Below, in pieces: positions 8,259-27,040 of a stretch of DNA of 64,000 bases. A program made the translations under genes and the position numbers. Location: the NCBI GenBank assembly GCA_030536575.1, contig JAUNPS010000007.1, positions 1 to 64,000 of the forward strand, written 5' to 3'. Source of the stretch: Eubacteriales bacterium (GTDB lineage: Bacteria; Bacillota; Clostridia; Lachnospirales; Lachnospiraceae). The notes below the pieces were generated by a model. That model was given only the letters and a program-made list of their open reading frames with translations. It did no database searches and was not told the DNA's origin. Within the stretch, counting starts at the first letter, position 1, and each line of letters opens with the position of its first letter.

Positions 8259-8367
8259 ACCCAAATACCCTCAAACGGGTTCTCTTCATTTCCACGGTAA
8301 CGGAAAAAGCAGTTGCGGCGACGACATATTGTGACAATACCCTCAAACGGGTTCTCTTCATTTCCAC
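8259..8367 (-). CRISPR. CRISPR array 1: two repeats, one spacer
   Basis: An intact 37-bp repeat lies at 8331-8367 and a copy with a degenerate left end at 8259-8295, flanking one 35-bp spacer. In transcript sense (minus strand) the repeat starts GTGGAAATGAA and ends GGGTATTGTCAC, with core variant CCCGTTTGAGGG. The damaged repeat is at the leader-distal end, as expected. The leader lies on the right, so transcription runs leftwards. The array sits downstream of the reverse transcriptase gene. Confidence 0.93.
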
Positions 8368-8545
8368 GGTATCCCTCTGAACCCCCCCCCATAAATCCAG
8401 GCTTCCCAAGCCCATTTTTGCGCGTAATTATCAGAATATTCTGATTTTAAGCTTTTAGGACACATTTTTTGGTTTTTTCAAATTTTCCTGCTTTCAGTAT
8501 ACTTTTTTATTCTCAAACAGTCAATCCTTTTATCTAATATCATGC
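8368..8545 (-). promoter_or_regulatory. Leader and promoter of CRISPR array 1
   Basis: This AT-rich leader is clearly homologous to those of arrays 2 and 3. On the minus strand TTGACT (8519-8524) and TATACT (8496-8501) are 17 bases apart, about 128 bases before the first repeat. A perfect 16-bp palindrome ATCAGAATATTCTGAT lies at 8430-8445, and a small GGCTT/AAGCC hairpin lies nearer the repeat. Unlike the other leaders it has a run of nine C at 8382-8390. Confidence 0.85.
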
Positions 8546-8698: not shown

Positions 8699-11512
8699 TC
8701 AAATTTCAATCAGCCACTCATACCCCTTTTCATTTTTTCTCCGTACCAAAATTCCCATCTCTATCTCCAGGCAGTCTGTTCCGGTGTCATCATAAATCTG
8801 CTCCAATTCCTTCTCTACATTGGATATAGAAATATCCAAACTTCTTTTCTCTTTTTTCAGTTTCAATATCCTCTGCGCCAATTCCTGTGCTTTTTTGTGA
8901 ATATTAATCTCATTGATTACTTCTTTTTGCTTTTCCCTTGGAATGCTGCGACTGGTTGGCAGCGTGATATCTCCCTGCATTTGATTCGAAAGCGATATTG
9001 CATGCATCACAGGTGACGGATAACAATTTTTTGAACGCTTGAAGCTGCAGTTACATCCAAACTCAGCAGTCACACTCTTATACTGATCACGCAATTTAAC
9101 ACAACTGATCGGCTTCTCAGGCATTTTACGGATAAACTTTTCTGTCGCATGGTATTGATAATTCAGAGTATACGCCATGACCTGATGTACAAACTGTTTC
9201 CCTTCTTCTCCCAAATGCCCGAACACATATAAAACAGACAAACGCTCAAAATGCGTCAGATAACCCGTTTTCTGAGCTTTCTGGCAAAGATATCTCATCA
9301 AATTGCAGTTTTTTAAAATCTCCATCACATTCGCAGATGCTCCTTCAAATGCATCCAGATTCTGATCAACCATTCTTTCCTCTATCTTTTCCTGCGCATG
9401 ACTGTTTGTCGCCAATATCTTTTTCATAGTATTCAAAGAAATTTCTGCTATACCATCCAAAAACAAATTCAATTCCGTCACTTTTCCACCGTCCCCGTCA
9501 AGAAAGAATGACTGAAAACCTGTGGCTGTATGTCGGCCACACGGAAGCTTTAATACCTGTCCAAACTTACCTGGCTTTATCCGCGTTTTATTTGGAAAAA
9601 ACTCTGTACTGATGCAGCTCTCCAGATTCTTTTCCACTCTTTCCTCCAGGATATCTGTGAACATCGTAATATATCTGACAGGAATCCATTCGGAGAAAAA
9701 AGTCCATACATGATATCCCCGACACCCGGAATATTCGATATATCCTTCCATACCAAATTCATGGAGTAATTTTACAAAATCACATGCTTTCGCATATGCC
9801 TTTTCCAGATAAGCCTGAAATTCACTTGTTTCTCTTTCATACTGCAACAGAATCTTCTTTGAAACATCAATATCGATAACCAAATATTTCGCAGTGCCAT
9901 TTGGTCTTTGAATATAAGTTCCAATCGTAACTCCTCCCTCCAGATGTTCCAACACTTTCTGCTCTGTCAAAGGCTCCGTCTGCAATTCCATCTGTCGATG
10001 TCCTTGGCTGTCTATGACTTCTGACACATATAGATCTTCCCGTCCCGCCAAAATTTTCAGCATTCTCCTGGCCGTATCTTTATTGTAGATCAAAGCCTGT
10101 CCCAAAGAGTCTGCCTGTATTATACACTTCCTGGAATTATTCGGTTTCAGCAGCAATTTTTCCTTTCTCTCCATCCAATATGCTGCCTTTTTATAATCAC
10201 CTGCATCGGTATACAACTGCATCAATTCTACTATACTGTCTTCCGTCTCCTGGATCACCAGCTTGCGATAATACATAAGGATTTGTTCCAATTGCTTCGG
10301 CTGAAAAGTCGTTTTTTCCTGCCTGCTCCAGATTCTATAATACTGCTCGTACTCCAACAACTCCAATTCCTCTTCGCCGCCTGCTTTCCATTGATCGGCA
10401 AGATATAGCATAATATCCAGGTAAATATTGTCCACAAATATTCGTCTGTCCTTCAGTGCTTCCAGTCTTTCGGGATCATTTTTCCCCATCTCAAGCAAAG
10501 TCACATATTCGAAAACGGATATTTCTCTTTGCTCTTCTTTAAAGTACTGCTCCCATCCGCCTATGATTTCCGTTGCTTTTTTTATTTTTTCTTTTAATGT
10601 CTGTCCTTGTGATGAGAGCCACATCCATTCTAGTCTGTCCTGCAATTTCTGTTCGGCTTTTACCGGAACGGTCTTTCCTTTCGCTGATATATGATATCCC
10701 AAAAAATCAATTCCTTTTTCTGTATCCGAAAATACTGTTTTCTCTTCGTTCAATTCCAGCCCCAGTTTCAAGAGCCGTGCCCGTATTTCAGACAATAAAT
10801 TGGCCAAATCATTCTTATTTTCTCCCATAACAAGCATATCATCCGAGTATCGCACAAAATAAAAATTCTTCCCTGCCAGCCATTGATCGAAATCCATCAG
10901 GTAGACATTCGATAAAATCGGCGAAATAGAGGAACCCTGATAAAGGCCGACTGTTTTCTCTGACAATTCTCCCGTATCCTGGATCATCTTCGCCCTTACA
11001 GCGTCCTCAATTAAATCCAATACATCCTCTTCCAAAATGGTTCTTTTTAGAATTTTCTTCAATATTGGCCATTGTATCCGGTCAAAAAAATGTTTTATAT
11101 CCAGCTTCAATACTGCCTGATGTGCGTCCCTTTTCATCCTCTCTTCGATTTCCTCAACTGCATGCAATGCTGATTTATGATTCCTATATGCATAAGTTTG
11201 GCTCGAAAACTGTCCCTCATATATTCTGTTCAATTCAAACGCTATTGACTGCTGCACCACCTTATCTCTCATAGAATAAAGCGCAATCTCCCTTGTCTTC
11301 TCTTCTTTGTAAAGAACTGTTTTTCTGACAGGCAGCGTTTTGTATGTATGGTCCTTCAATTCCATATGAAGCTGTTTCAATTCCTGTTTTCTATTCTCTT
11401 CAAACTGTTCGCATGTCACCTGATCAACTCCACACGAAGGTTTATTTTTCCTTACCTTCACCCATGCGGCTTCAAGCTTTTGTAAATCAATCATCTTATT
11501 ATATAAACTCAT
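8699..11512 (-). CDS. CRISPR-associated reverse transcriptase-primase fusion (RT + AEP + PriL-like)
   Basis: This is a 937-residue fusion. Residues about 35-290 are a reverse transcriptase: motif A Asp138 in KLDIKHFFD, motif B YQGSSISPILSN, catalytic pair in YSDD (222-225) and a following FLGYHIS. Residues about 470-690 match an archaeo-eukaryotic primase: a DxD in LVIDIDV (Asp547, Asp549), His601 in SGCRGYHVW, and KLPCGRHTATG (655-665). This wording resembles TOTE-type primases. Residues about 730-840 carry spaced cysteines (736, 804, 820/822, 830, the last in NCYPSPV), like the iron-sulfur domain of primase large subunit PriL. A helical tail follows. The ATG start is preceded by AGGAG; a TTG five codons earlier is less likely. 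Neither Cas1 nor Cas6 is fused. Its place next to cas1 and cas2 implies spacer acquisition, possibly from RNA with self-made primers, which is inference. Confidence 0.9.
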   Translation of the reverse strand: MSLYNKMIDLQKLEAAWVKVRKNKPSCGVDQVTCEQFEENRKQELKQLHMELKDHTYKTLPVRKTVLYKEEKTREIALYSMRDKVVQQSIAFELNRIYEGQFSSQTYAYRNHKSALHAVEEIEERMKRDAHQAVLKLDIKHFFDRIQWPILKKILKRTILEEDVLDLIEDAVRAKMIQDTGELSEKTVGLYQGSSISPILSNVYLMDFDQWLAGKNFYFVRYSDDMLVMGENKNDLANLLSEIRARLLKLGLELNEEKTVFSDTEKGIDFLGYHISAKGKTVPVKAEQKLQDRLEWMWLSSQGQTLKEKIKKATEIIGGWEQYFKEEQREISVFEYVTLLEMGKNDPERLEALKDRRIFVDNIYLDIMLYLADQWKAGGEEELELLEYEQYYRIWSRQEKTTFQPKQLEQILMYYRKLVIQETEDSIVELMQLYTDAGDYKKAAYWMERKEKLLLKPNNSRKCIIQADSLGQALIYNKDTARRMLKILAGREDLYVSEVIDSQGHRQMELQTEPLTEQKVLEHLEGGVTIGTYIQRPNGTAKYLVIDIDVSKKILLQYERETSEFQAYLEKAYAKACDFVKLLHEFGMEGYIEYSGCRGYHVWTFFSEWIPVRYITMFTDILEERVEKNLESCISTEFFPNKTRIKPGKFGQVLKLPCGRHTATGFQSFFLDGDGGKVTELNLFLDGIAEISLNTMKKILATNSHAQEKIEERMVDQNLDAFEGASANVMEILKNCNLMRYLCQKAQKTGYLTHFERLSVLYVFGHLGEEGKQFVHQVMAYTLNYQYHATEKFIRKMPEKPISCVKLRDQYKSVTAEFGCNCSFKRSKNCYPSPVMHAISLSNQMQGDITLPTSRSIPREKQKEVINEINIHKKAQELAQRILKLKKEKRSLDISISNVEKELEQIYDDTGTDCLEIEMGILVRRKNEKGYEWLIEI

Positions 11513-11523
11513 CCCGCTTCTCC

Positions 11524-11808
11524 TCAAACAACAAATAAATCTTCCTCTTCTGGATTCAGCACGTTTTCTGCGTTCCCAATTACTTTTATGCCCTTCTCAC
11601 ATTTCCCGCATAAATGATAAATGCGAATTCCATTCTCACCGGTATCCATACTTAAAAGTACCAGTTTCTCATACATTTGTTCGTATTGGCGCTGCGACAG
11701 ACGGCACTCAAATACACTATATTGTACCCGCACCCCATAACCTTCCAGTATTTTTGCTACTTTATTTCTTATCTTGTCGCTGTGAATATCATAACTAACC
11801 ACATACAT
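11524..11808 (-). CDS. cas2: Cas2 adaptation endonuclease subunit
   Basis: This 94-residue Cas2 has a ferredoxin-like fold. The start MYVVSYDIHSDKIRNKV carries the conserved early Asp (residue 7) of the family, and RVQYSVFECRLS forms the second strand region. The start is set at 11808, where GGGGA precedes the ATG, giving the usual family length; a longer frame exists. It overlaps the end of cas1 by 14 bases and ends 11 bases before the reverse transcriptase start. The three genes are therefore one translational unit. Cas2 bridges two Cas1 dimers in the integrase. Confidence 0.93.
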   Translation of the reverse strand: MYVVSYDIHSDKIRNKVAKILEGYGVRVQYSVFECRLSQRQYEQMYEKLVLLSMDTGENGIRIYHLCGKCEKGIKVIGNAENVLNPEEEDLFVV

Positions 11809-12796
11809 GATTCCCCATACAGTACGGCTCATACTGTTCTCCACGCATAATTGCTCTTTTCAATTTTGCAGTTTGACTATGAATGATTGTCCGGTAAGAA
11901 TTCCCATCTGTCGCTGCATTTTTCCCATTCATCCATTTTTCATATTCCGAACAAAATTTTCGAAAACCTTCTTCATTTAAAGTTACGCTCCCATCCTCCG
12001 GAAGTTCAAAATCATATTTTCCGAGAATTCTCTTATTCAGAAGAAAAATAACCATTCTGTCTGCCACTGGCTGTCTGAATTCCTCTACGATATCCAATGC
12101 TAAAGATTTCCGGCCATATCGGATGCCATGTAAAAATCCAAAATACACCTCGAAAGATTCCGCATCCAAAGCGTTGCTTACTTCCTTTGTCAAAAAGGTA
12201 TATGCAAGACTGATCAACGCATTCACTGGATCTTTGGGCGGCCTGCGATTTCTTCCCTGAAATGAAAAGTCACATTTCAGCATATTTCCAAATGCGCCAA
12301 AATAAATATTGCTGCATATCCCCTCTATTCCAAGCACCTCATTTGCTGTTTCTTTTGCATCCAGGGTACTAAGATATTTCTCCATCTGCTGTACATCTTT
12401 CTTCCAATTATAGTCTGAACCCTGCCATCTGTGCCTTTTCAGCATCGCAATCTGGTTGCAGATTTTATTTTTTACGATAACTTTTGCCATGGAAAGACGT
12501 TTTTCCTCATTTAAATAATACTCATATTGTTCCAGCCGAAGGAAAATATTTTTCGAGCTTTCTGCCGCCGTGTGCCCCAGATACTTTCCTGAGTGGGAAA
12601 AATAACTCACATCGATTCCTCGCTCCATCATTATATGAAGCGCCTGCGTTGTAACCTGTACATTTCCTACCACAGACACATTTTCTATATGTATAAGCGG
12701 CATTTCTAAAAGGCGAGCTCCGTTTTTTGTGACGATCAGTCTCTCACCGCTTTTCTGTATAGATGCCCCTTGTTCCCTCACATACAAAACAGCCAC
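11795..12796 (-). CDS. cas1: Cas1 integrase
   Basis: This 333-residue Cas1 is the metal-dependent integrase that inserts spacers at the leader-repeat junction. The N-terminal beta domain begins VLYVREQGASIQKSGERLIV. The catalytic helical domain shows Glu158 in GIEG, His223 in FLHG, and the acidic pair region around Asp235-Glu238 in ALDIVEEFRQPVADR. A GTG start is chosen because it is preceded by GGAGGAATAGGAA at the end of the upstream gene. It is a free-standing Cas1, not fused to a reverse transcriptase as in many RNA-acquiring systems. Confidence 0.96.
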   Translation of the reverse strand: MAVLYVREQGASIQKSGERLIVTKNGARLLEMPLIHIENVSVVGNVQVTTQALHIMMERGIDVSYFSHSGKYLGHTAAESSKNIFLRLEQYEYYLNEEKRLSMAKVIVKNKICNQIAMLKRHRWQGSDYNWKKDVQQMEKYLSTLDAKETANEVLGIEGICSNIYFGAFGNMLKCDFSFQGRNRRPPKDPVNALISLAYTFLTKEVSNALDAESFEVYFGFLHGIRYGRKSLALDIVEEFRQPVADRMVIFLLNKRILGKYDFELPEDGSVTLNEEGFRKFCSEYEKWMNGKNAATDGNSYRTIIHSQTAKLKRAIMRGEQYEPYCMGNHVCG

Positions 12797-12799
12797 TTC

Positions 12800-14356
12800 C
12801 TATTCCTCCATCCTTACGGCGTAATTTCGGGATTCAAGCGGATTCAGCCATCTCACATCCTGGCAATATTTTTCATACTCGATTCCTTCGATTTTGCAAA
12901 ATCGGTTCAAAAACTCATGAACAAACTGTTTGAACTTTCGGAAGTCTTCCTGTGACACTGGCCCCAGGCCATGGGCAAAAATGGAATTATTGCGCAGAAA
13001 AACCATAGAGCGAATTCTTTTTAATTCATTAATACCCTGATTTCCCTCATTGCAAACAACAGGATCTCCCAATGCATGAAGGATAATAAAACCTTCCAAC
13101 AGTGAAACTTGTTCCGGTAAATAGTCTCCTGTATCACTTTTAAACAATTTACCCTTTATTGCGTGAACTTTATTTTTCAGCAGCGCAAACTGTTCTTGTG
13201 TAGAAAGCCCTCCATATTCCGGACACTGTTTTGCATTGTATTTTAATGCCATATAATTCATTTTAGAAACATATAATCCATATAAAGCCAGCCTTCTTTG
13301 CTCTATCATTTCCAGAAGACGATAAAGCAGCAACGTCGCCATATCATATTTCTCCTGTTCCTCTCGTGTCAATGCGCTCTGGAACATTGTAAACATTAAT
13401 GCAGTCATTGCATCTAAATCTGTCAAAATATCTATATTTTTTCGTTCCTGGATAAGCCCCGGGATCTGCTGTAAATTCTGAAGGATTTTCTCCTGTTTCT
13501 GCAAAGTTTCATAAAAATCCATCAGCAGAAAAGTACCGTGCGTGATACGATCACGTTTTAACTGCCTATTTAATATCGAAATATAGTCATAGGCCGCTGT
13601 AAACTCCAAAGCATCCCACGCTTCATAAACCCTTGCCAGCAAATAGACAAAATTCAATTGCTGACGTATATTGGGATCAGGAATCTCTTCTTTTAATGTT
13701 TTCAACTTTTCCTGTGCCCCTGCATAGTTATGTTCGGAAAATAGTATCAGCGCTTTTTCAATTTCCAGATCTCCAAAAACAGCTAACGGATTTGAAATAT
13801 AAGAGAGTATTTCCGTTCCTGGATTCGGTTTTCTGAAATCTGTCAGATAATCATTCGTTCCAACGTATACAAGCTGTACATTGATCATTGCTCCTGCCAT
13901 CGCCGCCGCAACCGACATGGCTTTTGTTCCACCAGTAAAATCAATATACATTTTTTCCGGTTTATTCCATTCTAAATAGCTCCGTTTAATTTCCTTGTAT
14001 ATTCCCAACGGTTCCGTTTCACTGATTTTGCTTTTTTCGTAAGAATCAGGTGTCATCTCACAATATTTCACAATTTTATTCAATGTATGGATTGATTTCT
14101 CTGTATATAAGAAAAGGATTCTCCGAGGCTTAAATAATTTAATATTCAAAATAATCGGTTCATAAGATGTGCCAACCGACATTACCAGGTATTCCACTGG
14201 TTCATATACCTTTTTCTTGTTTCTTTTCACATAGTCTTCTTCGATCAATCCCATCAGATTTGTCTCATAGAATTCATCTGCCTGATGTCTCTGTTCCAGG
14301 GTTTTCCGTTCCAGCTGCATCCATTCCTGCGTCATCTTTTGCAATTTTTTATTCAT
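12800..14356 (-). CDS. CARF-HEPN ribonuclease of the Csm6/TIGR02710 group
   Basis: This 518-residue protein is of the Csm6/Csx1 superfamily. Residues about 53-190 form a CARF domain, with strand and ligand loop MSVGTS (59-64) and the second signature DFTGGTKAM (139-147). A long helical linker leads to a C-terminal HEPN domain with the nuclease motif R-x6-H (Arg455, His462 in RNNSIFAH). Such enzymes are switched on by cyclic oligoadenylate made by Cas10 and then cut RNA non-specifically. It lies in the adaptation operon, 4 bases before cas1, rather than with the effector genes. Start ATG follows AAAGGAG. Assignment to the exact family is from memory of its motifs. Confidence 0.82.
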   Translation of the reverse strand: MNKKLQKMTQEWMQLERKTLEQRHQADEFYETNLMGLIEEDYVKRNKKKVYEPVEYLVMSVGTSYEPIILNIKLFKPRRILFLYTEKSIHTLNKIVKYCEMTPDSYEKSKISETEPLGIYKEIKRSYLEWNKPEKMYIDFTGGTKAMSVAAAMAGAMINVQLVYVGTNDYLTDFRKPNPGTEILSYISNPLAVFGDLEIEKALILFSEHNYAGAQEKLKTLKEEIPDPNIRQQLNFVYLLARVYEAWDALEFTAAYDYISILNRQLKRDRITHGTFLLMDFYETLQKQEKILQNLQQIPGLIQERKNIDILTDLDAMTALMFTMFQSALTREEQEKYDMATLLLYRLLEMIEQRRLALYGLYVSKMNYMALKYNAKQCPEYGGLSTQEQFALLKNKVHAIKGKLFKSDTGDYLPEQVSLLEGFIILHALGDPVVCNEGNQGINELKRIRSMVFLRNNSIFAHGLGPVSQEDFRKFKQFVHEFLNRFCKIEGIEYEKYCQDVRWLNPLESRNYAVRMEE

Positions 14357-14465: not shown

Positions 14466-14990
14466 CTATGCATAGCGGGTTTGCTCCCACTGATTTTCAT
14501 TTACCAAATGATAAATAAGAGTATTCAGCCATTTTTTATGTTGACGTTTTAGGGGATATAGCGGCAAAAGAATAATTGCCTTGCATTGAAATTGATTGAT
14601 TTGATTACGTATAAAATTTTCAAAATATTCACGGAGCAAAAAGAACCATAGCTTCCATCGAAAAACTGTGCTGTTCTCGCATGGACTGCAATCTTGTTCC
14701 GCACATTCTGCTTCTGTTAAAACGGCCGCGATAACTGACGTCTCGTAGCGTTTGTAGGGGATGATCCGATCTGGCAGCTCATGGCTGATTTTCAGGCAAC
14801 TTATGCACCTGAGTCGCCGAATTATCAGAAAAACAGATGTGCCATCCTGCTGATACAGCACACGTTTGCGGCTTCCAATCACTTTAAAAGCTCCCTTGCA
14901 GTATGGACAATGGGAGATTTCTCTGCTTCTGACATAGAAAAATTCAGAGCCTTCCTTTGGTTCCAGAAAATAATCTTTTATAATAACCAT
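14466..14990 (-). CDS. DUF6431-like zinc-ribbon protein
   Basis: This 174-residue protein has two CxxC pairs (Cys28/Cys31 in HCPYC, Cys62/Cys65 in RCISC) that should bind zinc. Between and after them come IIRRLRC and HELPDRIIPYKRY, the pattern I associate with DUF6431 proteins of Firmicutes. The C-terminal half is basic and aromatic and could bind nucleic acid. Its function is unknown. It is the first gene downstream of CRISPR array 2 on the same strand, about 80 bases from the last repeat. A link to adaptation is possible but unproven. The ribosome binding site is weak. Confidence 0.6.
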   Translation of the reverse strand: MVIIKDYFLEPKEGSEFFYVRSREISHCPYCKGAFKVIGSRKRVLYQQDGTSVFLIIRRLRCISCLKISHELPDRIIPYKRYETSVIAAVLTEAECAEQDCSPCENSTVFRWKLWFFLLREYFENFIRNQINQFQCKAIILLPLYPLKRQHKKWLNTLIYHLVNENQWEQTRYA

Positions 14991-15071: not shown

Positions 15072-15918
15072 TAGCCAGTACCCTCTATCGGGTTTCCTTC
15101 ATTTCCACTCCTGATGGCAGAATGGAATTGTGTAGGAAGTATCTGTGACAATACCCTCTATCGGGTTTCCTTCATTTCCACCTCCTTAAAGCCAAAGAGT
15201 CGGAACGACTCGAAAAAAAGTGACAATACCCTCTATCGGGTTTCCTTCATTTCCACCGCTTAAAAGAAGTGCAGAAACAAAAAGATTTAATTGTGACAAT
15301 ACCCTCTATCGGGTTTCCTTCATTTCCACAAAGTGCTCGTTAATGAGCGCGGTAGAACTGTGACCTTGTGACAATACCCTCTATCGGGTTTCCTTCATTT
15401 CCACGCGATCTCGGTGGATGGGTTGAGAATGAAAGTAATCTTGTGACAATACCCTCTATCGGGTTTCCTTCATTTCCACACACCAGAAGTACGCACAATA
15501 ATCTTTGGATAATCTGTGACAATACCCTCTATCGGGTTTCCTTCATTTCCACAGTCCCTGTTTCAGCCCAAATCCAGATATCTGTATTGTGACAATACCC
15601 TCTATCGGGTTTCCTTCATTTCCACGTGGGTCGTAGACGGCGCATACGTAGCCGCTAATACGGTGACAATACCCTCTATCGGGTTTCCTTCATTTCCACA
15701 AGGAGGTGCCGGACATGGGCAAAAAATACGGATTTGTGACAATACCCTCTATCGGGTTTCCTTCATTTCCACCATGCGCCGGAAGACGGCGGGCTTGTAC
15801 CTTGAAAAGTGACAATACCCTCTATCGGGTTTCCTTCATTTCCACAATCTACAACGCATTAAAAAGGCGTCCACGGAAACTGTGACAATACCCTCTATCG
15901 GGTTTCCTTCATTTCCAC
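15072..15918 (-). CRISPR. CRISPR array 2: twelve repeats, eleven spacers
   Basis: Eleven identical 37-bp repeats start at 15145, 15220, 15293, 15368, 15443, 15516, 15589, 15663, 15736, 15809 and 15882. A twelfth at 15072-15108 has a degenerate outer end. Spacers are 36-38 bp and all different. In transcript sense each repeat starts GTGGAAATGAA and ends GGGTATTGTCAC, with core CCCGATAGAGGG able to form a small stem. The leader is on the right, so transcription runs leftwards into the adaptation genes. It is the largest and probably most active array here. Confidence 0.98.
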
Positions 15919-16085
15919 TGTACCCCTCTGGAACCCTCATAAATAAAGGCTTCCCAGGCCCATTTTCGCATGTAATTATCAGAATATTCTGATTTCAACC
16001 TTTTTAAGCACGTTTTTTGGTTTTTTCAATTTTTCCTGCTTTCAGTATACTCTTTTGTCACCGAACAGTCAATCTTTTCTCCTGT
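15919..16085 (-). promoter_or_regulatory. Leader and promoter of CRISPR array 2
   Basis: This leader is homologous to those of arrays 1 and 3. On the minus strand TTGACT (16067-16072) and TATACT (16044-16049) are 17 bases apart, 126 bases from the first repeat. The 16-bp palindrome ATCAGAATATTCTGAT is at 15978-15993. The 65 bases from here to the stop of the Cas7-insertion gene hold no recognisable terminator, so effector transcripts could also run into this array. Confidence 0.88.
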
Positions 16086-16150: not shown

Positions 16151-18484
16151 TTATACCAACCTATAAAATTTCATTTTCGTTCCATTTGGATACGTTTTCT
16201 CCCGCGTAAACCTAACCCTTACCGTCTCCCCTGCCGAAAGCGTCCTTTCTCCGAGCGAATCCCCGTAAATGGTTCCTTCTTCCCCATTCACCTTTATCAT
16301 GACATTCCCACTCTTCGCAATCCTGTTCACCACAGCCGTCTCCACCGTCGCAGCGCCCGTCTCTTTTCGGCTTTGCACACTTCTCCGAACCGCTGCAGCC
16401 TCTCCCGCTCTCTGCCTCTCCTGCCGCATCCCCTGGCCCGCACCGCCATAATCGATGACCATAAGTCCCGGCTTCATTGCTTCCATATATTCCGCATATG
16501 CCATTTCTCTACGCCCCATCGGCATACCATGAGACACTTCCTTTTGTCCGCTTCGTCCCTTCGCATACCTGACATGATTCTGCGTAAACCAATCATAAAT
16601 ATTTTCTTTTCCATGCACATACGGATATCGGACGTTTTCTCCTTCTACAGCATCAAAGGCGGTCATCTCCAGAAAATCCTTCTCAATTTCTCCATCAAAT
16701 TCAGGAGCCTGATACTCTTTATAGGGAACCACCTTTCTCTCCACCCGCCTATTCTCCTCATTTCTCTCATAGACGAGAAGCTCCACCTTGTCCACTGACA
16801 CCGCAATACTGCCAAAACCAAGAGGTTTCGCTCCTCCCAGCTTATAGCCATGCTTTTTCCGAGAAATGTCCTCCTCGTCTCCTGCACTCAGAAGATAGAT
16901 CAACTGGTTCAGCTCTGTCCGTGTCAGATTCTGGAAATAAAGCTCTCCTGTAAAGGAGACGTTTTCCCTCACAGGGCGAATGGTTACATTCATCTGATCA
17001 CGCTGACCGCTGACTCTTGTTCCCGGTATTTTGACTTCCGGATTCTTTTCCAGCGTTTCCATATCTTTTTCCAGCCTGCCACACGTCAGTTCCGGCTGAT
17101 GCCAGTAAAACTTCCTGCCGCTGATACTTCCATTGTAAGGGTGTATCGTTCCATTGGCATCTATATAGTAGTCATACGTCCAAAAAACTGCCCCTTCCGG
17201 GCGCTGAAGATAGAATTCCATATTATTCAGCTTGGGGCCGGAGAGCGGAAGCAGCGTAATCGGACTGCTGCTGTAATAGTCTTTGACCTCATTTCTATCG
17301 CAAACACAGTTCAAGTCAGACACACGGATGCGGGACGTATGTGCAAAGTTCTCACCAGACTCCGAAGCCCCTTTATCTACAACCGTTCCAAACAAAGAGC
17401 ATGCAGGACACAACCGCTTGGGATCCGTACATGTCCTGTGTTCCTCCCCAATCAGATTTTTCAGCTTCGTCTCATAAATTTCTCGTGTAATGCACGCCGG
17501 TGACAACATCAGATGTCCATGCACAGCTTCGCTGTAATAAACCGGGAAATATTCTTCCCCATTTCCTTTCTGAAAATCCTGAAATTTTTTTGTATACTCT
17601 ATATACAGATGTTTTTTATTTTTTGTATATTCATTAAGCGCCTTCTCCAGCGTATCCAGAGAAACACCCCTTCTGATCTCTTCCACTTGTTTATTCTTTT
17701 TTTGCTTTTTCTGTTCCTGGATCTGCTTTTCCATAACCGGCGTAAACACATGGCAGCAGTGCTTCTGCTGTTTCTGTGTACTCTCGATGCCATCCTCACC
17801 TTTGATAACATAGCCCTCCGCATTATGATACGACTTTTTCTCCAGTTTTACACATTTTGCAAGATTTTTTCCTCGCGAGCGCAGTTCTCGCTTGAAATAA
17901 ACCTTGTCCCCCTCTTTCATGTCTTCTTGAATATAGCACCGCCTGCTCCAGTGCTTCGGATCATCCTCCCAGTCATCCTCCAGACTGTTTGCTCCCATCG
18001 TCCGCATCAAATGATCCTCTGCAGGATACAGATCATAACCGCCTGTTTCCTTTCGCCGAAGCAGCCCAGGCAGATACCTCTCCTGCGAACGTTTACTCAG
18101 CGTCACATCGTCATCAATCGCTGACATACATGAATTTGTCAGAATCTCAAAATTGCTCCTGAGCATCCCCCGCATCTCACTCCCCGGAATTACTGGCAAA
18201 GCTGTCGGCTCTTCAGGAGCAGTTTGGCACTTCGAAAGGTCGGTATAGGAAAAAAAGTCATAGGACTTATGATCCTCCGTCCCCACAGCAAATGCACGGC
18301 CGCTGCTGGTATTCGGTATAAATAGCGGCGTTTTAGTCAAAACAGAATAATGAATGACCCCTGTATAGTTGGCCATTTCTTCTGCCATGTACTCTTTCTC
18401 TCCAGCAGAAGCTTCTCTTTTCCCTCTTCCATCCTTTGAAAGAGGAATAAAATTATATGGATTTACGAATTGGTATTTGCTCAT
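16151..18484 (-). CDS. Cas7-insertion type RAMP protein (TIGR03986 family)
   Basis: This 777-residue Cas7-like backbone subunit has a RAMP core split by a long charged insertion. IPGSEMRGMLRSNFE near residue 100 is the usual substrate-helix entry. A zinc-like cluster CPACSLFGTVVDKG sits about residue 365, followed by SRIRVSDL, and a glycine-rich loop KLGGAKPLGFGSI lies near residue 575. The C-terminal 60 residues resemble an OB/S1 fold (NRIAKSGNVMIKVNGEEGTI). The start follows AGGTGG. In type III-Dv complexes an equivalent protein with an inserted domain caps the crRNA filament. It is the last gene of the effector operon. Confidence 0.85.
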   Translation of the reverse strand: MSKYQFVNPYNFIPLSKDGRGKREASAGEKEYMAEEMANYTGVIHYSVLTKTPLFIPNTSSGRAFAVGTEDHKSYDFFSYTDLSKCQTAPEEPTALPVIPGSEMRGMLRSNFEILTNSCMSAIDDDVTLSKRSQERYLPGLLRRKETGGYDLYPAEDHLMRTMGANSLEDDWEDDPKHWSRRCYIQEDMKEGDKVYFKRELRSRGKNLAKCVKLEKKSYHNAEGYVIKGEDGIESTQKQQKHCCHVFTPVMEKQIQEQKKQKKNKQVEEIRRGVSLDTLEKALNEYTKNKKHLYIEYTKKFQDFQKGNGEEYFPVYYSEAVHGHLMLSPACITREIYETKLKNLIGEEHRTCTDPKRLCPACSLFGTVVDKGASESGENFAHTSRIRVSDLNCVCDRNEVKDYYSSSPITLLPLSGPKLNNMEFYLQRPEGAVFWTYDYYIDANGTIHPYNGSISGRKFYWHQPELTCGRLEKDMETLEKNPEVKIPGTRVSGQRDQMNVTIRPVRENVSFTGELYFQNLTRTELNQLIYLLSAGDEEDISRKKHGYKLGGAKPLGFGSIAVSVDKVELLVYERNEENRRVERKVVPYKEYQAPEFDGEIEKDFLEMTAFDAVEGENVRYPYVHGKENIYDWFTQNHVRYAKGRSGQKEVSHGMPMGRREMAYAEYMEAMKPGLMVIDYGGAGQGMRQERQRAGEAAAVRRSVQSRKETGAATVETAVVNRIAKSGNVMIKVNGEEGTIYGDSLGERTLSAGETVRVRFTREKTYPNGTKMKFYRLV

Positions 18485-18495
18485 CACAATCCACC

Positions 18496-18879
18496 TCACA
18501 TCCTCAGGCGGTAATTATCGATGACCGCCATACCTGTCGCGTCTTCATCTCCAGAAATTTCCACATCATATCTGATATGATTCAGAACCGTAATCGTACC
18601 GCCGTCCTCCAGCAGAACCGTTTCCGCGTAGACCCGTTCCCTATCATTTTCCGGAAAATCAGCCAGTGTTTCTATGATTCTCCTTCTGGCTGCCACCGCG
18701 CGATATTCTCTTTCCCGATCAAAAAGATGGATCTCGATCAGTTCCTTTCCCGCAATCTCCTCCTCAATCTGTCCGAGGCTTTCATAAGCATGGAAAATCG
18801 GCCGTTCCAGCCTGGTATAAGCCAGAATTTGTCCCCTCTCCGGAGCCTTTTCCGTTTCTTTCAGATCACTCCAATACAT
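18496..18879 (-). CDS. csx19: Csx19-like small protein of type III-D
   Basis: This 127-residue protein starts at MYWSD, chosen because GGAGGAGACGGA precedes it. It carries an ELIEIHLFDREREYRAV strand pattern and a C-terminal HIRYD...DNYRLRM segment, resembling the Csx19/TIGR03984 proteins found between RAMP genes of type III-D loci. In the characterised III-Dv complex Csx19 is a bound accessory subunit. Sequence alone gives moderate support; position between the double Cas7 and the Cas7-insertion genes strengthens it. It lies 11 bases upstream of the latter gene. Confidence 0.62.
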   Translation of the reverse strand: MYWSDLKETEKAPERGQILAYTRLERPIFHAYESLGQIEEEIAGKELIEIHLFDREREYRAVAARRRIIETLADFPENDRERVYAETVLLEDGGTITVLNHIRYDVEISGDEDATGMAVIDNYRLRM

Positions 18880-18893
18880 TCCGTCTCCTCCCG

Positions 18894-20180
18894 TCATAAT
18901 GAATACAACTCTTTCAGGCATGTCTCTATAGAAACTGCCTCGCTGTACTGAATATGTCTCTCCGGATCTGCTGAAAAGATTCCCCGCCCTACAGCAGTCT
19001 GGCCGCCAACCGCCACATATCCGTCCTGAATATCCGCAATCACAAGACTCAAAATACCAATCAGGGCATGATAAGCCTTCGATTCGTCCTTTTTCACCAT
19101 GATTTCCAGCTCCGTCCTGCCTCCAAAGTAAGCAATCTCCGAATAAAGCGCACCGTCCTTCGTGGAAGCGTCAAACCGGTTGATCCGGTTCCTGGTCATC
19201 GGCACCGCAGCGGCTTCCTCAATTCTGCTCTCACCGATCACCACCATGGACTGCTCCGATGCTTCGTTCTTCTTCAGGGGTACATATCCGAACCATTGCT
19301 TTATGAGTTCTGCCGTCTGTGCTTCTGTTTTTCCAATCGAATACAGAATCGTGCGTATATCCGCCCGGATTGCCCCGTTCCAGCTTGTCCCAGGAATCAC
19401 CGGCATGCTTGCGCAGGTGATATGCTCAAAATCTGCTTCCTGAGGTCTGGCGGAATATCTGCGAATGCTGATACCTCCCTTCAGCCTCAATGGAACAGTC
19501 ACCTTCACATATCGTTCCGGAACTTGCTCTTTCCCTTTTGCCCATTCCTCATAACTTTTCTTCTCATACAGCTTGGTATCCCTGAAATTCTTCTTAAAAT
19601 TCACCCATTCTTCGATATCAATCTTTCTGCCATCTTCCTGTGAAAAACTTTTCTGATAGACAGCTCCGAGCTTCAGCCTTCCAAATCCTCTGTTTTTATT
19701 GGCTCCAATGCGGATCGTTCCCTTCTGTATCGCCTGAAAAATACTGGCGATCTCTTCTTCATAATCCTCTTTCTTGTCCGTTCCCCGCATCGTATAATTC
19801 AGATACAGAGTGCCTCTGGCTCCAGTCTCTACAATCTCCATATCAAACTTATTCTGAACATTTTTCCATTCATTCAGTTGTACCCCGTCACGCACGGATA
19901 CAACTGACTTCCGGTCGAAATACAGATCGCAGACAGCAACCCGACTCATTTTCCCGTCCTCTCCGTCTGAAAATCCAAATATCCCGTCCGTCTTTTTATC
20001 CATTCCAAGGTATCCGCGCATAGCCCCTGCCAGGGACGTACCAGGCACAAACACCTCTCCGCTCCCGTTCACCAGTACATCGGAATCCGTATATTCATTC
20101 ATACCGCTGGAAACGCTCAGCGGTGAACATAGCGTAACCTCGGCTGCATAGTAGCATCTTTTTCTAATGGGGTTTTTCAT
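18894..20180 (-). CDS. Double Cas7 (Cas7-2x) RAMP protein
   Basis: This 428-residue protein consists of two Cas7/Csm3-like domains in tandem. Unit one (about 8-180) has SPLSVSSGMNEYTDSDVLVN, then VPGTSLAGAMRGYL, and ends in the glycine loop IGANKNRGFGRLK. Unit two (about 230-415) has IPGTSWNGAIRADI and the loop VGGQTAVGRGIF. Acidic residues after the first strand of unit one (EYTDSD) are where target-RNA cleavage residues sit in this family. The start at 20180 follows GGAGGG and overlaps the upstream gene by four bases. The architecture equals the Cas7-2x subunit of type III-Dv. Confidence 0.85.
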   Translation of the reverse strand: MKNPIRKRCYYAAEVTLCSPLSVSSGMNEYTDSDVLVNGSGEVFVPGTSLAGAMRGYLGMDKKTDGIFGFSDGEDGKMSRVAVCDLYFDRKSVVSVRDGVQLNEWKNVQNKFDMEIVETGARGTLYLNYTMRGTDKKEDYEEEIASIFQAIQKGTIRIGANKNRGFGRLKLGAVYQKSFSQEDGRKIDIEEWVNFKKNFRDTKLYEKKSYEEWAKGKEQVPERYVKVTVPLRLKGGISIRRYSARPQEADFEHITCASMPVIPGTSWNGAIRADIRTILYSIGKTEAQTAELIKQWFGYVPLKKNEASEQSMVVIGESRIEEAAAVPMTRNRINRFDASTKDGALYSEIAYFGGRTELEIMVKKDESKAYHALIGILSLVIADIQDGYVAVGGQTAVGRGIFSADPERHIQYSEAVSIETCLKELYSL

Positions 20181-22384
20181 GACTGCCCTCCCCCTTTGCC
20201 GTGCTTTTCCTTTTTTCGGATTACATACTTTAATTGCTGTAGATATGCTGTTAAATAGAGCCATTTGCATCGATCCGTATCATACGAGTATCTGCTGATT
20301 TTAAACGCTTCGCAAAAGCTGTCCGTTAGTCCGGTGCTCCTTTTTTCGACCTGCTCCAATATGGTATCCGCTATTTTCAATTTCTCCTTCTTTTTATCGG
20401 ACTTCTTTCCATAGCGTTCTTCCGTCATCCAGGAAATGTCTGCAAACGAACTGCTCTGCATACACATCAGAAGCATGTTGCTGATCGTCGGTCTCGCGTC
20501 TGGTGTTTTTAAAACGGCCAACTCTGCCTGCCCATTTGCAGCAGAACAATTCCTGCCGCCCTTATCGGGAAGTGCTTTCACATCCTCGATTGCCGCAGTC
20601 CGCACATAATCTTCAAATAATTCATCACAAATACTCTCAGCAAACTCAGAATCCCCGATCACTGCCACCGTACTGCTGGATTCTTCTCCGAAAGATACCA
20701 CGCTTCCAACTGCGTGGCTGCTATCCGAAGTGTCCACCACTCGAAGTGTAGCTTCTCCAAATCCCTCACTGACGCGCTCGCCGAGCAGCAGTATTTCCGG
20801 CAACTCCAACTCCACCGGGCAATTCAGATGATAGCAAAGCACGGTTCCCTTATCGAACGCTTCTACAATCGGCTTTCTTGCTCCCCATGTGACATTGTAT
20901 CCGCCGACCGACGTATAGCAGACAAATGGCTTCACCTCCGGCTGAATATCCCCCGGCAGCTTTAGAGCTGCCCTTATTTCTGCATCCAGGTCCCTGATAT
21001 CCGTACTGTAAAACGCTCTGTCGTTGTAGACAATTGTCGGCGCCTCCAGCTTCACGATCCATTCGTTGGCCATCACTTTCTTTTCTTCCTTCCGGCAGCT
21101 CGTATCCGTAATGCGTATTCTGGTTCTGCCATACTCGGCAGAACGGGAATAACCCATATAAAATGTTTCCCGGACGGTAAGGCAGTCATAGACCTGCCTA
21201 ATCTGGTCTTCGCTTCCGATCACATACCCCCGAAAGCTCTGTCCTGCCTCTATGCTGGACATCTGATAAAACTGGCTGCCTTCTGTTTCACCTCTGTCTG
21301 CCTCTTTTACAGATGAAACCTCTTTCGCCACTCTCCCGATTGATTTGTCCTCCGGCCGCCTGTGATGATACCGCTCTTCGATATTCACATTCCCTTTTTT
21401 CAGATTCCCCTGAGCATCCATCCGGATGTAACAATGTTTCATCCGGTTCATCTGCTTCTCCTTCAACTCTTTCGGAAGCGGGTATAGCTGATCCACATAA
21501 CTGTCCTCTTCGTTTTTAATGGAATACAGAGTGGCTGGTACTTCAACGCAGCGTTTTCCCTCCCATGCCGGATACGCATTGGAACAGAACAGTTCTCCTG
21601 CTGCCATAAATTCCATAAAATCTTTCCGTCTGCCTCTGAGTTCCTGCGCGATCAGTCCCAGAAGTTTACTGCCCTCAATATAATCCAGCGTTCTTGCCTC
21701 TCCGCCATTCACACTTTTGCAGATTACTGGTTCCTCCAGGTACAGCTCATAATCCAATCGTACAGCGCCCGGCACATAAGCTGCATGCCTGCACTCCTCT
21801 TTTTCCTTCGGCTGCTGAATCAGGCTGGTACTGATCTCACCCAGCCCTCGTGTCCTCGCAATTCCGATACTCGTGAATGCATTGCAGCATATTTCCATTT
21901 CTTTCTGATACTTCTCATCCATTTCGATCTGCGCTTCAAATACAAGCCCCTTTTTCGCCACACGCATGGAACGCAGGGAAGTCGGATCAGCCGAGCCCGT
22001 CTCTGAATCCAGGCTCGTCTGGAAACGGACATAAGAAAAATGGTTCAATACATTCTGCGGATGGAACACCGGGTTCCCGGATGCGTTTCTGACATATTCC
22101 AGATTTTTCTCATAATTCTGGAGCCTTGCATTTCCTATCCGGATAGCCGCTGTACTGCCATACCTGTCCGTTTTTCCAAACATTTCTTCAAGCGGCAGCT
22201 CCATCCCCCACTCTCTCAGCTCCTCGGCGCATTCCCGCAGGCAACCCTTGATTCTTTTTGCCGGAATATAAGGAAAACCGTACTCATCGTGACAGATATC
22301 CGTATCCAGAGAGCTGTTATATACGCCGCCGTCTGATACACACATATCGCTCTTCAGTTCTATTTTCAACAAATAACTGCTCAT
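20177..22384 (-). CDS. Cas7-Cas5(Csx10)-Cas11-like fusion protein
   Basis: This 735-residue multidomain RAMP protein starts with a Cas7 unit (1-195): an acidic loop SLDTD (Asp27, Asp29), then DEYGFPYIPAKRIKG, ending in the glycine loop IGIARTRGLGEI. Residues about 208-585 resemble Csx10, the Cas5-like protein of type III-D (YIEGSKLLGLIA, FCSNAYPAWEGKRCVEVP, LLLGERVSEGFGEA). Residues about 640-725 are helical and basic and are a plausible fused Cas11 small subunit. The order equals the Cas7-5-11 subunit of type III-Dv. It would hold the crRNA 5' handle. It overlaps the neighbouring genes by four bases on both sides. Confidence 0.85.
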   Translation of the reverse strand: MSSYLLKIELKSDMCVSDGGVYNSSLDTDICHDEYGFPYIPAKRIKGCLRECAEELREWGMELPLEEMFGKTDRYGSTAAIRIGNARLQNYEKNLEYVRNASGNPVFHPQNVLNHFSYVRFQTSLDSETGSADPTSLRSMRVAKKGLVFEAQIEMDEKYQKEMEICCNAFTSIGIARTRGLGEISTSLIQQPKEKEECRHAAYVPGAVRLDYELYLEEPVICKSVNGGEARTLDYIEGSKLLGLIAQELRGRRKDFMEFMAAGELFCSNAYPAWEGKRCVEVPATLYSIKNEEDSYVDQLYPLPKELKEKQMNRMKHCYIRMDAQGNLKKGNVNIEERYHHRRPEDKSIGRVAKEVSSVKEADRGETEGSQFYQMSSIEAGQSFRGYVIGSEDQIRQVYDCLTVRETFYMGYSRSAEYGRTRIRITDTSCRKEEKKVMANEWIVKLEAPTIVYNDRAFYSTDIRDLDAEIRAALKLPGDIQPEVKPFVCYTSVGGYNVTWGARKPIVEAFDKGTVLCYHLNCPVELELPEILLLGERVSEGFGEATLRVVDTSDSSHAVGSVVSFGEESSSTVAVIGDSEFAESICDELFEDYVRTAAIEDVKALPDKGGRNCSAANGQAELAVLKTPDARPTISNMLLMCMQSSSFADISWMTEERYGKKSDKKKEKLKIADTILEQVEKRSTGLTDSFCEAFKISRYSYDTDRCKWLYLTAYLQQLKYVIRKKEKHGKGGGQS

Positions 22385-24048
22385 GTTTCCCCGCCCTCTT
22401 CCATCTGATCCAGGTCAATATAATCATCCATCATCTCCAGCGCATCAAACCATTTGGCCGTCATCCTTCCCTCTTCATCCTTCAGGTACAGCTCATCGCT
22501 GCCATCTGGCATCGCCCAGCCTCTTGATTCCAGAAACACCTGAAACTGGTTGACACGCATCGCTCCCTGCGGATAGAGATCGCGCAGCTTCTTGGCAAAG
22601 GAACGGGGCAGTTGATTCCCTTCCTCAAGATCGTCCTGAAAATATAAAATTGCCTTTTTAAAATCATCCAGAAGCTGGCCGCCGCCCTCTTTGCATTGCT
22701 CCCTGATGATCCCGTCCGTCTCCGTGGAGATCAGATATGGACGCCGCAAAAGGTTTTCGCCGTGGCTGGTTACGTATTCCCGTCTGCGCATTTCTTTCAG
22801 GTCCCGCGCCTGAATATTTTTGCATATCTGAAAATCCACCCAATTGCCAATACGGTCTCCGTCTTTATATTTCGCCTGCTTCGCGCATTTTTTCGCCTGG
22901 CTGCAGCATTCCTCCGCCACATCATAGCCCACATGGAACGGAAAATGGCTGCCGATCAAAGCAATCCCCGCGCACACGCTGAAACCGTATTTCCGAATGC
23001 TTTCCGCATCTGTTTTTCCAGTCATTGTATGGCGGGAAATTTCCCTGCAGAAGTACTCCACCGTTGCAAGCGCAATCTTTCCATTGCACACATATGTGAT
23101 ATCATCCCCTGCCGTCAGAATTTTCAGGACAAAATTCTCGGTTTCCTTTTCCGCATACTCTTTCCGCTTTCCGGCCTCTCTGTTAAAATACGATTTCATT
23201 TTTTCAAATGTATTTTTATACGAAGAATTAATTGCAAAGGAAATACTCCGCATCCGGTTTACGGCAGTCTCATAATCTTCAAGTCCATTGATCTGCTCGC
23301 GAATACGCAGGCCCATATTGTTGCCGTCTATGTGCACCACTGCAATGGTGCTGTCCACACCTTTTTTCGTCACATAACTGTCCAGTATTTTGATCTGCTT
23401 CCCTATTCCCTCGCGCGCCTTATTGCCCTTTTTCTTTTTGAGCAGCGATTCTGTTCCAAGCGCTTGGACGTTGTTCTCTGTTATGTCGAAATCGCCTGTC
23501 TTTGCCGTGTTTTTCCCTTCGTTTCCATATGGATCGCCCCATCGGACAGCCGGATATCCTGTTTTCACTTCTATCCTCATTACCGGCAATGCGCCAAGCG
23601 GTTTTGACACGACCATGTTTTCCTTGACGCGGGCCATCTTGTCCAGCAGCTCCTGATAATCCTTCTGATAATTTCCATTCACATACACCCAGGCAGCCGC
23701 AAGCTGCAGGGAATAGGTCTGTTCCATCGTATATTTTGCCATCAGTTGATTCATCTGGAGGCATAATTCGCGACTTTCACAGATGATGTACGCATTTCCG
23801 CCGCCGATATAAAGCACCTGTACCTTTTTCTCACTGGTACGGTACTCCATTACTCCTGTCTCCGTACACCATTTCAGGTCTGCATCCTGTGAGATGCCAA
23901 GCTTATTAACCGCATTTTCTAGCGCTTCCTGAATAATATCCTCCACGATCGCGGATGCCCCGATTGCATCTTTTACCTTTGCAGTCCGAAAAATGTATTC
24001 CTGAATTCCCCGGACGTCGTACATGGCCAGAACTTTTCCTTTTCCCAT
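22381..24048 (-). CDS. cas10: Cas10 without HD domain, palm-type cyclase
   Basis: This 555-residue Cas10 opens directly with the first palm domain (YDVRGIQEYIFRTAK), so the N-terminal HD nuclease is absent, as typical for type III-D. The first palm has IGGGN (81-85). The second has a metal-binding Asp241 in HIDGNNMG and AGDD at 313-316 in place of the usual GGDD. Both catalytic aspartates remain, so cyclic oligoadenylate synthesis is plausible, and two CARF-HEPN proteins in the locus support it. Without HD, single-stranded DNA cleavage is not expected. ATG overlap links it to the downstream fusion gene. Confidence 0.93.
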   Translation of the reverse strand: MGKGKVLAMYDVRGIQEYIFRTAKVKDAIGASAIVEDIIQEALENAVNKLGISQDADLKWCTETGVMEYRTSEKKVQVLYIGGGNAYIICESRELCLQMNQLMAKYTMEQTYSLQLAAAWVYVNGNYQKDYQELLDKMARVKENMVVSKPLGALPVMRIEVKTGYPAVRWGDPYGNEGKNTAKTGDFDITENNVQALGTESLLKKKKGNKAREGIGKQIKILDSYVTKKGVDSTIAVVHIDGNNMGLRIREQINGLEDYETAVNRMRSISFAINSSYKNTFEKMKSYFNREAGKRKEYAEKETENFVLKILTAGDDITYVCNGKIALATVEYFCREISRHTMTGKTDAESIRKYGFSVCAGIALIGSHFPFHVGYDVAEECCSQAKKCAKQAKYKDGDRIGNWVDFQICKNIQARDLKEMRRREYVTSHGENLLRRPYLISTETDGIIREQCKEGGGQLLDDFKKAILYFQDDLEEGNQLPRSFAKKLRDLYPQGAMRVNQFQVFLESRGWAMPDGSDELYLKDEEGRMTAKWFDALEMMDDYIDLDQMEEGGET

Positions 24049-24073: not shown

Positions 24074-25612
24074 TTAACTCAGATCAACAACACGAAGCTC
24101 TGGATTTTTCTTTTTGATCTCGTCTGCAATCGCTGTGAACTCAGCCAGAAAGTTTTCTATTCTTTTCTTTAGATTGCCAGAACCATCTTCCGGGCTGTCC
24201 TTCCAGTTGCGATCCTTCGGATATTTGCTCTGCATATAATAAAAGAAACCATCCTTATTTCTGCTTGCAGAAGAGGCTGCATGATTTGTCATATTTCTTT
24301 TGCAACATAAACACCTATATTCGCTCAAACTGTTTTCGATCCTGTTCTCCAGGTCATCGCATCCGTATTCTGCAGATATGCTTATTCCTTCGAAATCTGT
24401 GTCATATACAAGATAATATCTGATGAAATAATGATTCAGATCCTTCATCTTATATGGAGCCGTGCACTTATACTTTTTATAGATTTTCGCAAAATCACCA
24501 AGTACATTCTTCCGGTCATCATTCTGGTCACAATAATAAATCAGTCCATTGTTTACATATTCATATGGCATCTTCGCCTCAAGAATCGTAAGCGCCTGCT
24601 GCAAAAATCCCTTTTTCAGGCACCACCGAATCTGCTCAATATATCGATATCTGGAATTTTCAATCAGCGGCCGATAATCCTCAAGGATATCCTCAAATAC
24701 AATATCAAGCTGCGTCTTTTCATCCGCTGGCTGGCTATGATCTCCGAACTCTTTTGACAGCTCCTGAATAATGGTAACCGCCTGGTCAAACCCACCCACA
24801 TCACTCATACGGATGGCATCCGAGGCCTTCTGGATCGCTTCCACCAGCTTTTTGTCCCTCTCACTCTCCTGCGTCCCAAAATAATTCACCAGTTCCTGAC
24901 CCCAGCCGTAGTTTTTGAACACCTGCATGGCGGTCATCAGTTCATACGTCCTGTAGCTCTCGCTTACTTCCGACATTGGCTGAACTGCATTTGCAGGATT
25001 AAACTCTGTAGCGTACCTTCCCCGAATCGTTACATTCTGATCTTTCAGCAGTTCAACAATCGCATTCATCTGTGCAATGGCGCTCCGGTCTCCGCCCTGC
25101 ATATCCATATATAAGTTGATCTTTTTCGTTCTATCAACGCCCCTGATTGCTTCTACTGCATGCCAGAAATAAATTGTATTTTTATTCGCGTCTGTTTTTA
25201 TGATCTGAAAAAGCTTTTCAGGATCTGGATAATATTCTGCTCTGGTAAACCGGAATTCCTCTACTTTATTTTCCAATCCAAGCGTATGGCCATCTGTGCC
25301 GGTAATAAAATCCTTAATCCGCTCCTTGTAAAAATCAACTGCTGTAAAATTATCATAATTTTCTTCTGGAATCTGTGTTTCATCAGACGCCAGAATAATA
25401 ATCCGGCTTACTTTCTGCCCTTTTGCGGCAAGTTTGGAAAGAACATATTTCGTCCCGGCTTCGAGCTGCGTAATTCCATTAAAATGGTATGTTCGTTCCT
25501 GATCCTGCATCCGATAATGATTCATCATCCTGTTTTTGGGCAGGATACTCATACTCAAAAGCAGCACGTTTTCTTCTGTCCTTAATCCTTTTTTCTCTAT
25601 GGATTTTCCCAT
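24074..25612 (-). CDS. CARF-HEPN ribonuclease of the Csx1/TM1812 group
   Basis: This 512-residue protein has an N-terminal CARF domain (about 12-210), with NVLLLSMSILPKN, then YHFNGITQLEAGTKYVLSKL and the signature DMQGGDRS near residue 172. The C-terminal region ends in a HEPN motif R-x4-H (Arg439, His444 in RNMTNHA), preceded by CLCC. This is the layout of Csx1-type RNases activated by cyclic oligoadenylate. The start at 25612 follows AGGAG. It lies between cas6 and cas10, 12 bases from the former, so it is expressed with the effector complex, unlike the second CARF-HEPN protein of the locus. Confidence 0.85.
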   Translation of the reverse strand: MGKSIEKKGLRTEENVLLLSMSILPKNRMMNHYRMQDQERTYHFNGITQLEAGTKYVLSKLAAKGQKVSRIIILASDETQIPEENYDNFTAVDFYKERIKDFITGTDGHTLGLENKVEEFRFTRAEYYPDPEKLFQIIKTDANKNTIYFWHAVEAIRGVDRTKKINLYMDMQGGDRSAIAQMNAIVELLKDQNVTIRGRYATEFNPANAVQPMSEVSESYRTYELMTAMQVFKNYGWGQELVNYFGTQESERDKKLVEAIQKASDAIRMSDVGGFDQAVTIIQELSKEFGDHSQPADEKTQLDIVFEDILEDYRPLIENSRYRYIEQIRWCLKKGFLQQALTILEAKMPYEYVNNGLIYYCDQNDDRKNVLGDFAKIYKKYKCTAPYKMKDLNHYFIRYYLVYDTDFEGISISAEYGCDDLENRIENSLSEYRCLCCKRNMTNHAASSASRNKDGFFYYMQSKYPKDRNWKDSPEDGSGNLKKRIENFLAEFTAIADEIKKKNPELRVVDLS

Positions 25613-25623
25613 TTTTTCTCCTT

Positions 25624-26565: not shown

Positions 26566-26679
26566 AACTTTCAAACCTCCCGATATTCTTTTGTTTTCTT
26601 CCACTTTTCCTCAAGACGTTCTCCTGACTCTGTGCTGAATGACCTCTAAACTTTCGTTGTGCCCGCTCTTTCTACGATT

Positions 26680-27036: not shown

Positions 27037-27040
27037 GCTT

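Follow-up and report, generated by a model that had tools for sequence, protein, structure and literature searches.

The DNA analysed here, a stretch of 64,000 nucleotides (nt) referred to as the window, comes from contig JAUNPS010000007.1 of a Lachnospiraceae genome (4.81 Mb, 100 contigs, 90.7% complete) and carries a type III-D CRISPR locus with the gene RT-CAPP, which encodes a reverse transcriptase (RT) joined to a CRISPR-associated primase-polymerase (CAPP). The product is almost certainly a CART-CAPP within an adaptation operon. An alternative TTG start at 11527 would give a chain of 942 amino acids. The gene and its parts, including an archaeo-eukaryotic primase (AEP) or Prim-Pol domain and a region resembling the C-terminal domain (CTD) of PriL and Pri2, are as follows.

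8699 to 11512, minus strand: RT-CAPP (CART-CAPP) gene, 937 amino acids, ATG start.
10505 to 11512, minus strand: RT domain and thumb, residues 1-336, with catalytic D138, D224 and D225.
10103 to 10504, minus strand: helical linker, residues 337-470, from the secondary structure of the structure model.
9395 to 10087, minus strand: AEP/Prim-Pol domain, residues 476-706, with D547, D549, H601 and E637.
8978 to 9349, minus strand: PriL/Pri2-CTD-like domain, residues 722-845, with C736, C804, C820 and C822.
8702 to 8887, minus strand: Mu Gam/Gp157-like tail, residues 876-937, Pfam PF22709 (E = 1e-20).

The chain has each testable defining feature of the CART-CAPPs, the RT-Prim-Pol fusions described as CAPP_A type 2 (PMC8211822). 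Its RT has a group II-like fold with intact catalytic aspartates and can be aligned to GsI-IIC RT starting at residue 2, a CAPP_A Prim-Pol domain is present and can be modelled on the active MsCAPP along its full length, the C-terminal domain carries conserved cysteines, and the gene shares an operon with cas1 and cas2 of a type III system. Among the structural neighbours of residues 722-845, the CTDs of Pri2 and PriL-PriX rank first or close to it. By analogy with CAPP architecture, the linker may be a counterpart standing in place of the TPR part. A first-pass annotation made from the letters alone had reported RT, primase and PriL-like domains in a single chain; this observation is confirmed, and its domain assignments and CRISPR adaptation context are borne out by family matches, the structure model and the neighbouring cas1 and cas2 genes. 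No Cas1 domain was found within the 942-amino-acid chain (Pfam, up to E = 1). A group II intron RT was rejected as an identity because no intron RNA flanks the gene (Rfam at gathering scores, whole window) and the RT scores 254.5 bits against TIGR04416 (group_II_RT_mat), below the cut-off of 300. The sole Rfam match in the window is a SAM riboswitch at 55587-55687 on the minus strand. A TOTE conflict system was likewise rejected; among the TOTE-named parts the chain matches just AEP-TOTE and the Gam-like tail, and TOTE proteins carry helicases.

RT-CAPP is the final gene of csm6-cas1-cas2-RT-CAPP, and a mini-array comes next. The other features of the locus are listed below.

8259 to 8377, minus strand: mini-array downstream of RT-CAPP, two repeats and one spacer, with a leader copy at 8386-8530.
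11524 to 11844, minus strand: cas2, Pfam PF09827 (E = 5.2e-21).
11795 to 12796, minus strand: cas1, a separate, unfused gene, Pfam PF01867 (E = 5.1e-92).
12800 to 14356, minus strand: csm6/csx1 (CARF-HEPN).
14466 to 14990, minus strand: DUF6431 protein, Pfam PF20020, between the array and csm6.
15072 to 15918, minus strand: CRISPR array, 12 repeats of 37 nt and 11 spacers.
15934 to 16078, minus strand: leader side of the main array, 85% identical to 8386-8530.
16151 to 18499, minus strand: Cas7 (TIGR03986, III-D).
18496 to 18921, minus strand: Csx19.
18894 to 20270, minus strand: Cas7 (III-D).
20177 to 22384, minus strand: Cas7/Cas5 (Csx10-like, III-D).
22381 to 24048, minus strand: Cas10 (III-D).
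24074 to 25627, minus strand: second CARF-HEPN protein.
25624 to 26604, minus strand: Cas6, a separate gene.
26680 to 27096, minus strand: Csx20.
27115 to 27295, minus strand: third CRISPR array, two spacers.

Matches to the CAPP half turned up in 5 of 391 class genomes and 5 of 397 family genomes (the window's own counted in both), and two of the five class matches (G182 and G229) cover the AEP part only, at 26% identity; relatives are therefore rare. Three of 398 phylum genomes matched a profile built on the PriL-like part, namely the window's own and those of two further RT-CAPPs (L060 and L061), as did one of 58 genomes in the order of Acetivibrio. Among named genomes, a single-sequence scan returned zero relatives and an alignment-based scan 32 loci, five of them on contigs shared with the class and family searches. 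Counted by eye, the order csm6-cas1-cas2-RT-CAPP recurs in 21 of these 32 loci and cas1-cas2-RT-CAPP in 24, the remainder being contig ends, deletions and other orders. Phylogenetic analysis of 31 RT rows separated 28 RT-CAPP-family RTs from three group II RTs (support 97/95). Although 44 plasmid records match a portion of the CAPP half, none reaches 80% coverage, and IMG/VR gave one partial viral match, at a contig end (L054). The Prim-Pol sequences of the characterised CaCART-CAPP and GlCART-CAPP are not among the class, family, phylum, Acetivibrio-order, named-genome, plasmid or viral matches. Homologues of the DUF6431 protein, which might at a guess be a regulator, lie close to csm6 in 4 of the 32 loci (L039, L040, L042 and L043). 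In three separate loci (L023:8999-9070, L026:127-306 and L053:2923-3723), deletions have placed part of cas1 beside the middle of RT-CAPP. L138:1786-3744 is an RT-Cas1 fusion of a III-D locus in which YADN replaces YADD.

In assays of CaCART-CAPP and GlCART-CAPP, the RT primed and extended on both RNA and DNA and the Prim-Pol domain was inactive; the authors suppose redundancy and decay of the Prim-Pol in CART-CAPPs, yet call its retention unclear (PMC10415136). These assays favour the hypothesis of Zabrady 2023 that the AEP is a dead relic kept as a scaffold, with the RT performing all synthesis. However, the residues of the window clade read differently. They were counted over 41 rows (28 plus 13 added), with split genes entered piecewise, duplicate contigs counted once and each column restricted to the rows that have a residue there. 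The catalytic aspartates of the RT are kept in all covering rows (D138 in 30 of 30, D224 and D225 in 31 of 31), and so are D547 (36 of 36) and H601 (35 of 35) of the AEP, whereas D549 is kept in 34 of 35, with L049 the exception, and the E637 position holds 33 E and one D in 34 rows; L019, which lacks the AEP, is probably misaligned at the D547 column. D547, D549, H601 and E637 of the window chain align in phmmer with D177, D179, H226 and E260 of MsCAPP (numbering offset derived by hand). D177/D179 is the published catalytic pair of MpCAPP, and E260 contributes to holding the initiating nucleotide (PMC10345425, PMC8211822).

Selection on the AEP resembles that on the RT. Mean pairwise identity among 17 intact genes is 0.506 for the RT, 0.372 for the linker, 0.454 for the AEP, 0.669 for the PriL-like part and 0.574 for the tail. 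The ratio of nonsynonymous to synonymous substitution rates (dN/dS), taken from seven pairs more than 60% identical that belong to two small clades, and hence are non-independent, and none of which includes the window, is 0.05-0.21 for the AEP against 0.05-0.145 for the RT (six of the seven pairs, with estimable dS), and 0.012-0.044 for the PriL-like part (five pairs). In favour of the relic, six relatives are broken or cut inside the AEP, by a stop (L028, L045), a frameshift (L041, L050) or loss of parts (L049, L053). However, over the same 32 loci, many of them in draft assemblies and one (L044) not judged for its runs of N, the RT is broken or lost in six as well (L023, L026, L032, L035, L049 and L053), and damage is therefore not limited to the AEP; the PriL-like part is broken in one locus, L045. 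At L050:10140-10240, a run of eight A just past AEP motif I splits RT-CAPP, through sequencing error, slippage or a true break. Retention of the Prim-Pol catalytic residues in nearly every domain-bearing relative, with purifying selection close to that on the RT, sits badly with simple decay, and this evidence for the window clade is a new addition.

No part of the chain is better conserved than the PriL-like domain, whose cysteines are invariant (C736 in 37 of 37 covering rows; C804, C820 and C822 in 36 of 36). This domain also occurs beside an RT in two chains that have no AEP, L018:9727-11616 of Acetivibrio alkalicellulosi (637 amino acids) and L019:13217-14812 of genome G084 (544 amino acids), both composed of an RT with intact YxDD, a four-cysteine PriL-like part and a tail whose Pfam Gam-like match exceeds the cut-off in L018 but not in L019. 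L018 is flanked by cas2, cas1, cas6 and Cmr-type III-B genes, and L019 adjoins a cas1 gene. Acetivibrio additionally has a split RT-CAPP; in G084 (assembly completeness 91%, contamination 8%), the CAPP query found the AEP-less chain only. Approximately unbiased tests of one loss of the AEP versus two gave p = 0.39 and 0.41 on long branches, with a later gain as another option. No description of a CRISPR-linked RT and PriL-like chain without an AEP was found in a mainly open literature that included parts of PMC5513706, PMC6753606 and PMC12669027. These natural chains suggest that the PriL-like part partners the RT. They also count in favour of the relic hypothesis, but with the catalytic residues retained, the dN/dS of the AEP near that of the RT, RT breaks equally numerous and the AEP modelled whole on an active enzyme, a dead scaffold appears somewhat unlikely.

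The first-pass annotation had further proposed that spacers could be taken from RNA, which the arrays do not show. From 327 spacers found, a set of 302 distinct spacers in 23 loci was oriented to the CRISPR RNA (crRNA) direction by the 3' end of the repeat. This set was restricted to arrays with repeats of 33-38 nt and to spacers of 28-45 nt, one copy each, and three unoriented spacers were dropped. Purine skew on the crRNA strand is -0.168 (p = 1e-37) and negative in 22 of the 23 loci. AGGAGG occurs on 0 crRNA strands against 11 antisense strands, AAGGAG on 1 against 18, and a Shine-Dalgarno-like site followed by ATG on 0 against 14. Because of this skew and these ribosome-site-like motifs on the antisense strand, almost every crRNA is inferred to be the antisense of an mRNA. 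Open frames number 548 on the crRNA strand and 518 on the other (p = 0.09), and this slight excess on the crRNA strand therefore adds no support to the antisense reading. Leader-side and old spacers are equally skewed (-0.191 and -0.151; rank correlation p = 0.22).

The bias was nevertheless rejected as proof of RNA capture. Control III-A arrays from the same family whose fetched stretch lacks an RT-CAPP match (11 of 20 loci used) have a skew of -0.113 (127 spacers), which differs from that of the RT-CAPP arrays at p = 0.011 per spacer and p = 0.17 per locus; the genome of control L107 (G631) bears RT-CAPP elsewhere, and control L110 is positive (0.06). The skew is -0.066 in I-C-like arrays beside III-D effectors (83 spacers), -0.197 in one locus with an RT-CAPP-like repeat and no cas1 or RT seen (14 spacers), and -0.267 in one RT-Cas1 locus (10 spacers). 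In an RT-Cas1 system, the antisense preference at acquisition is marginal and lost without the RT, and interference effects are strong (PMC5576922). Selection could therefore suffice, leaving RNA capture unproven. An adaptation role with spacers derived from DNA, the RT acting as a DNA-dependent polymerase, would accord with the bias of RT-less arrays, with the non-significant difference by locus and with the equal use of DNA and RNA by the CaCART-CAPP RT (PMC10415136). However, the conserved group II-like fold and residues of the RT and the somewhat stronger bias per spacer speak against it, and this alternative is considered improbable.

Read on the crRNA strand, 175 of 300 RT-CAPP spacers begin with A, against 34 of 127 control spacers (by locus p = 0.0007, 20 versus 10 loci, ranges 0.17-1.0 and 0-0.43); once three all-A loci are removed, 137 of 262 RT-CAPP spacers do so. 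This 5'-A is seen across the window arrays at 15072-15918 and 27115-27295 and in 21 related loci, and is low in L030, L038 and L041. It may reflect a loose 38th repeat base, an end preference of the integrase or a trace of the polymerase. A signature of de novo priming was sought and rejected, with GG starting 2 of 302 spacers against 7.6 expected from the inner frequency; CARTs favour CC templates in vitro (PMC10415136). No phage match was found for the main array of the window or for the arrays of L022 and L039 (L022 at near identity only), and for 4 of the 14 spacers in the window a 22-base core had no exact match in viral contigs.

The best explanation, given about even odds, is that the CART-CAPP serves as the dedicated polymerase of the type III-D adaptation module. 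In the mechanism considered most likely, the RT domain, together with Cas1 and Cas2, would begin a strand without a primer and extend it, with invader RNA or single-stranded DNA as template, as shown in two homologues. The four-cysteine PriL-like domain and the Gam-like tail might grip the new strand by its 5' end and dock the polymerase, the former assisting the RT no less than the AEP. The AEP could make or prime the second strand on complementary DNA, or displace and fill DNA at the integration site, after which Cas1-Cas2 would integrate the duplex. CAPPs act as DNA-dependent primases and polymerases that displace strands and bind Cas1 (PMC8211822), a chemistry that suggests second-strand work for the AEP instead of RNA priming. 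This division of labour among the three parts is put forward tentatively. Rather unlikely is a full two-polymerase machine, in which the RT handles RNA and the AEP DNA around one shared PriL-like clamp to make a duplex without a cellular primer or polymerase, and of which L018 and L019 would be the stripped form, with a PriL-like subunit serving the RT. The first-pass model, in which RNA is primed by the AEP and the primer extended by the RT, fits two active sites that look intact within one chain but is very unlikely, given that homologue RTs prime unaided, doing both steps in two CART-CAPPs with an inactive Prim-Pol, and that CAPPs are DNA-dependent. With its active site intact in the window clade, the AEP may still have a role.

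The 2023 study left open why CART-CAPPs retain a seemingly dead Prim-Pol, and the window clade offers a direct test because it combines an intact Prim-Pol site with AEP-less natural relatives, and selection acts on the domain among close relatives. If the AEP works, a single protein could convert RNA into an integrable DNA duplex, a property of use in recording RNA. Should the PriL-like clamp prove to act for the RT, a reverse transcriptase would here have taken over a primase subunit.

Among known systems, the closest comparison is CaCART-CAPP of Caloramator australicus (CCJ33120, PDB 8BGJ), an RT, Prim-Pol and CTD chain that has been purified and assayed (PMC10415136), contrary to the first-pass annotation, which knew of no functional study of a chain with a PriL-like domain. 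It has 713 amino acids against 937 in the window and an RT without an N-terminal extension, the window RT being aligned to GsI-IIC RT from residue 2. The TPR-CAPPs MpCAPP and MsCAPP resemble the window chain in their whole-length AEP and C-terminal conserved-cysteine domain, but have no RT and a demonstrated Prim-Pol activity (PMC8211822). The cysteine-bearing CTD of CAPPs has been described (PMC8211822), and a Pri2/PriX-like role has been proposed for it (PMC10345425). Residues 722-845 of the window chain share four conserved cysteines with the CTDs of eukaryotic Pri2 and archaeal PriL-PriX. In the window chain the cysteine spacing is 68/16/2, unlike that of Pri2, which is about 80/17/40. The RT-Cas1 and Cas6-RT-Cas1 fusions (Marinomonas mediterranea) are likewise CRISPR-associated RTs with Cas1 and Cas2, whereas Cas1 and Cas6 are separate genes in the window. 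The window chain thus belongs to an already known kind, the CART-CAPPs of CAPP_A type 2 (Zabrady 2021, 2023).
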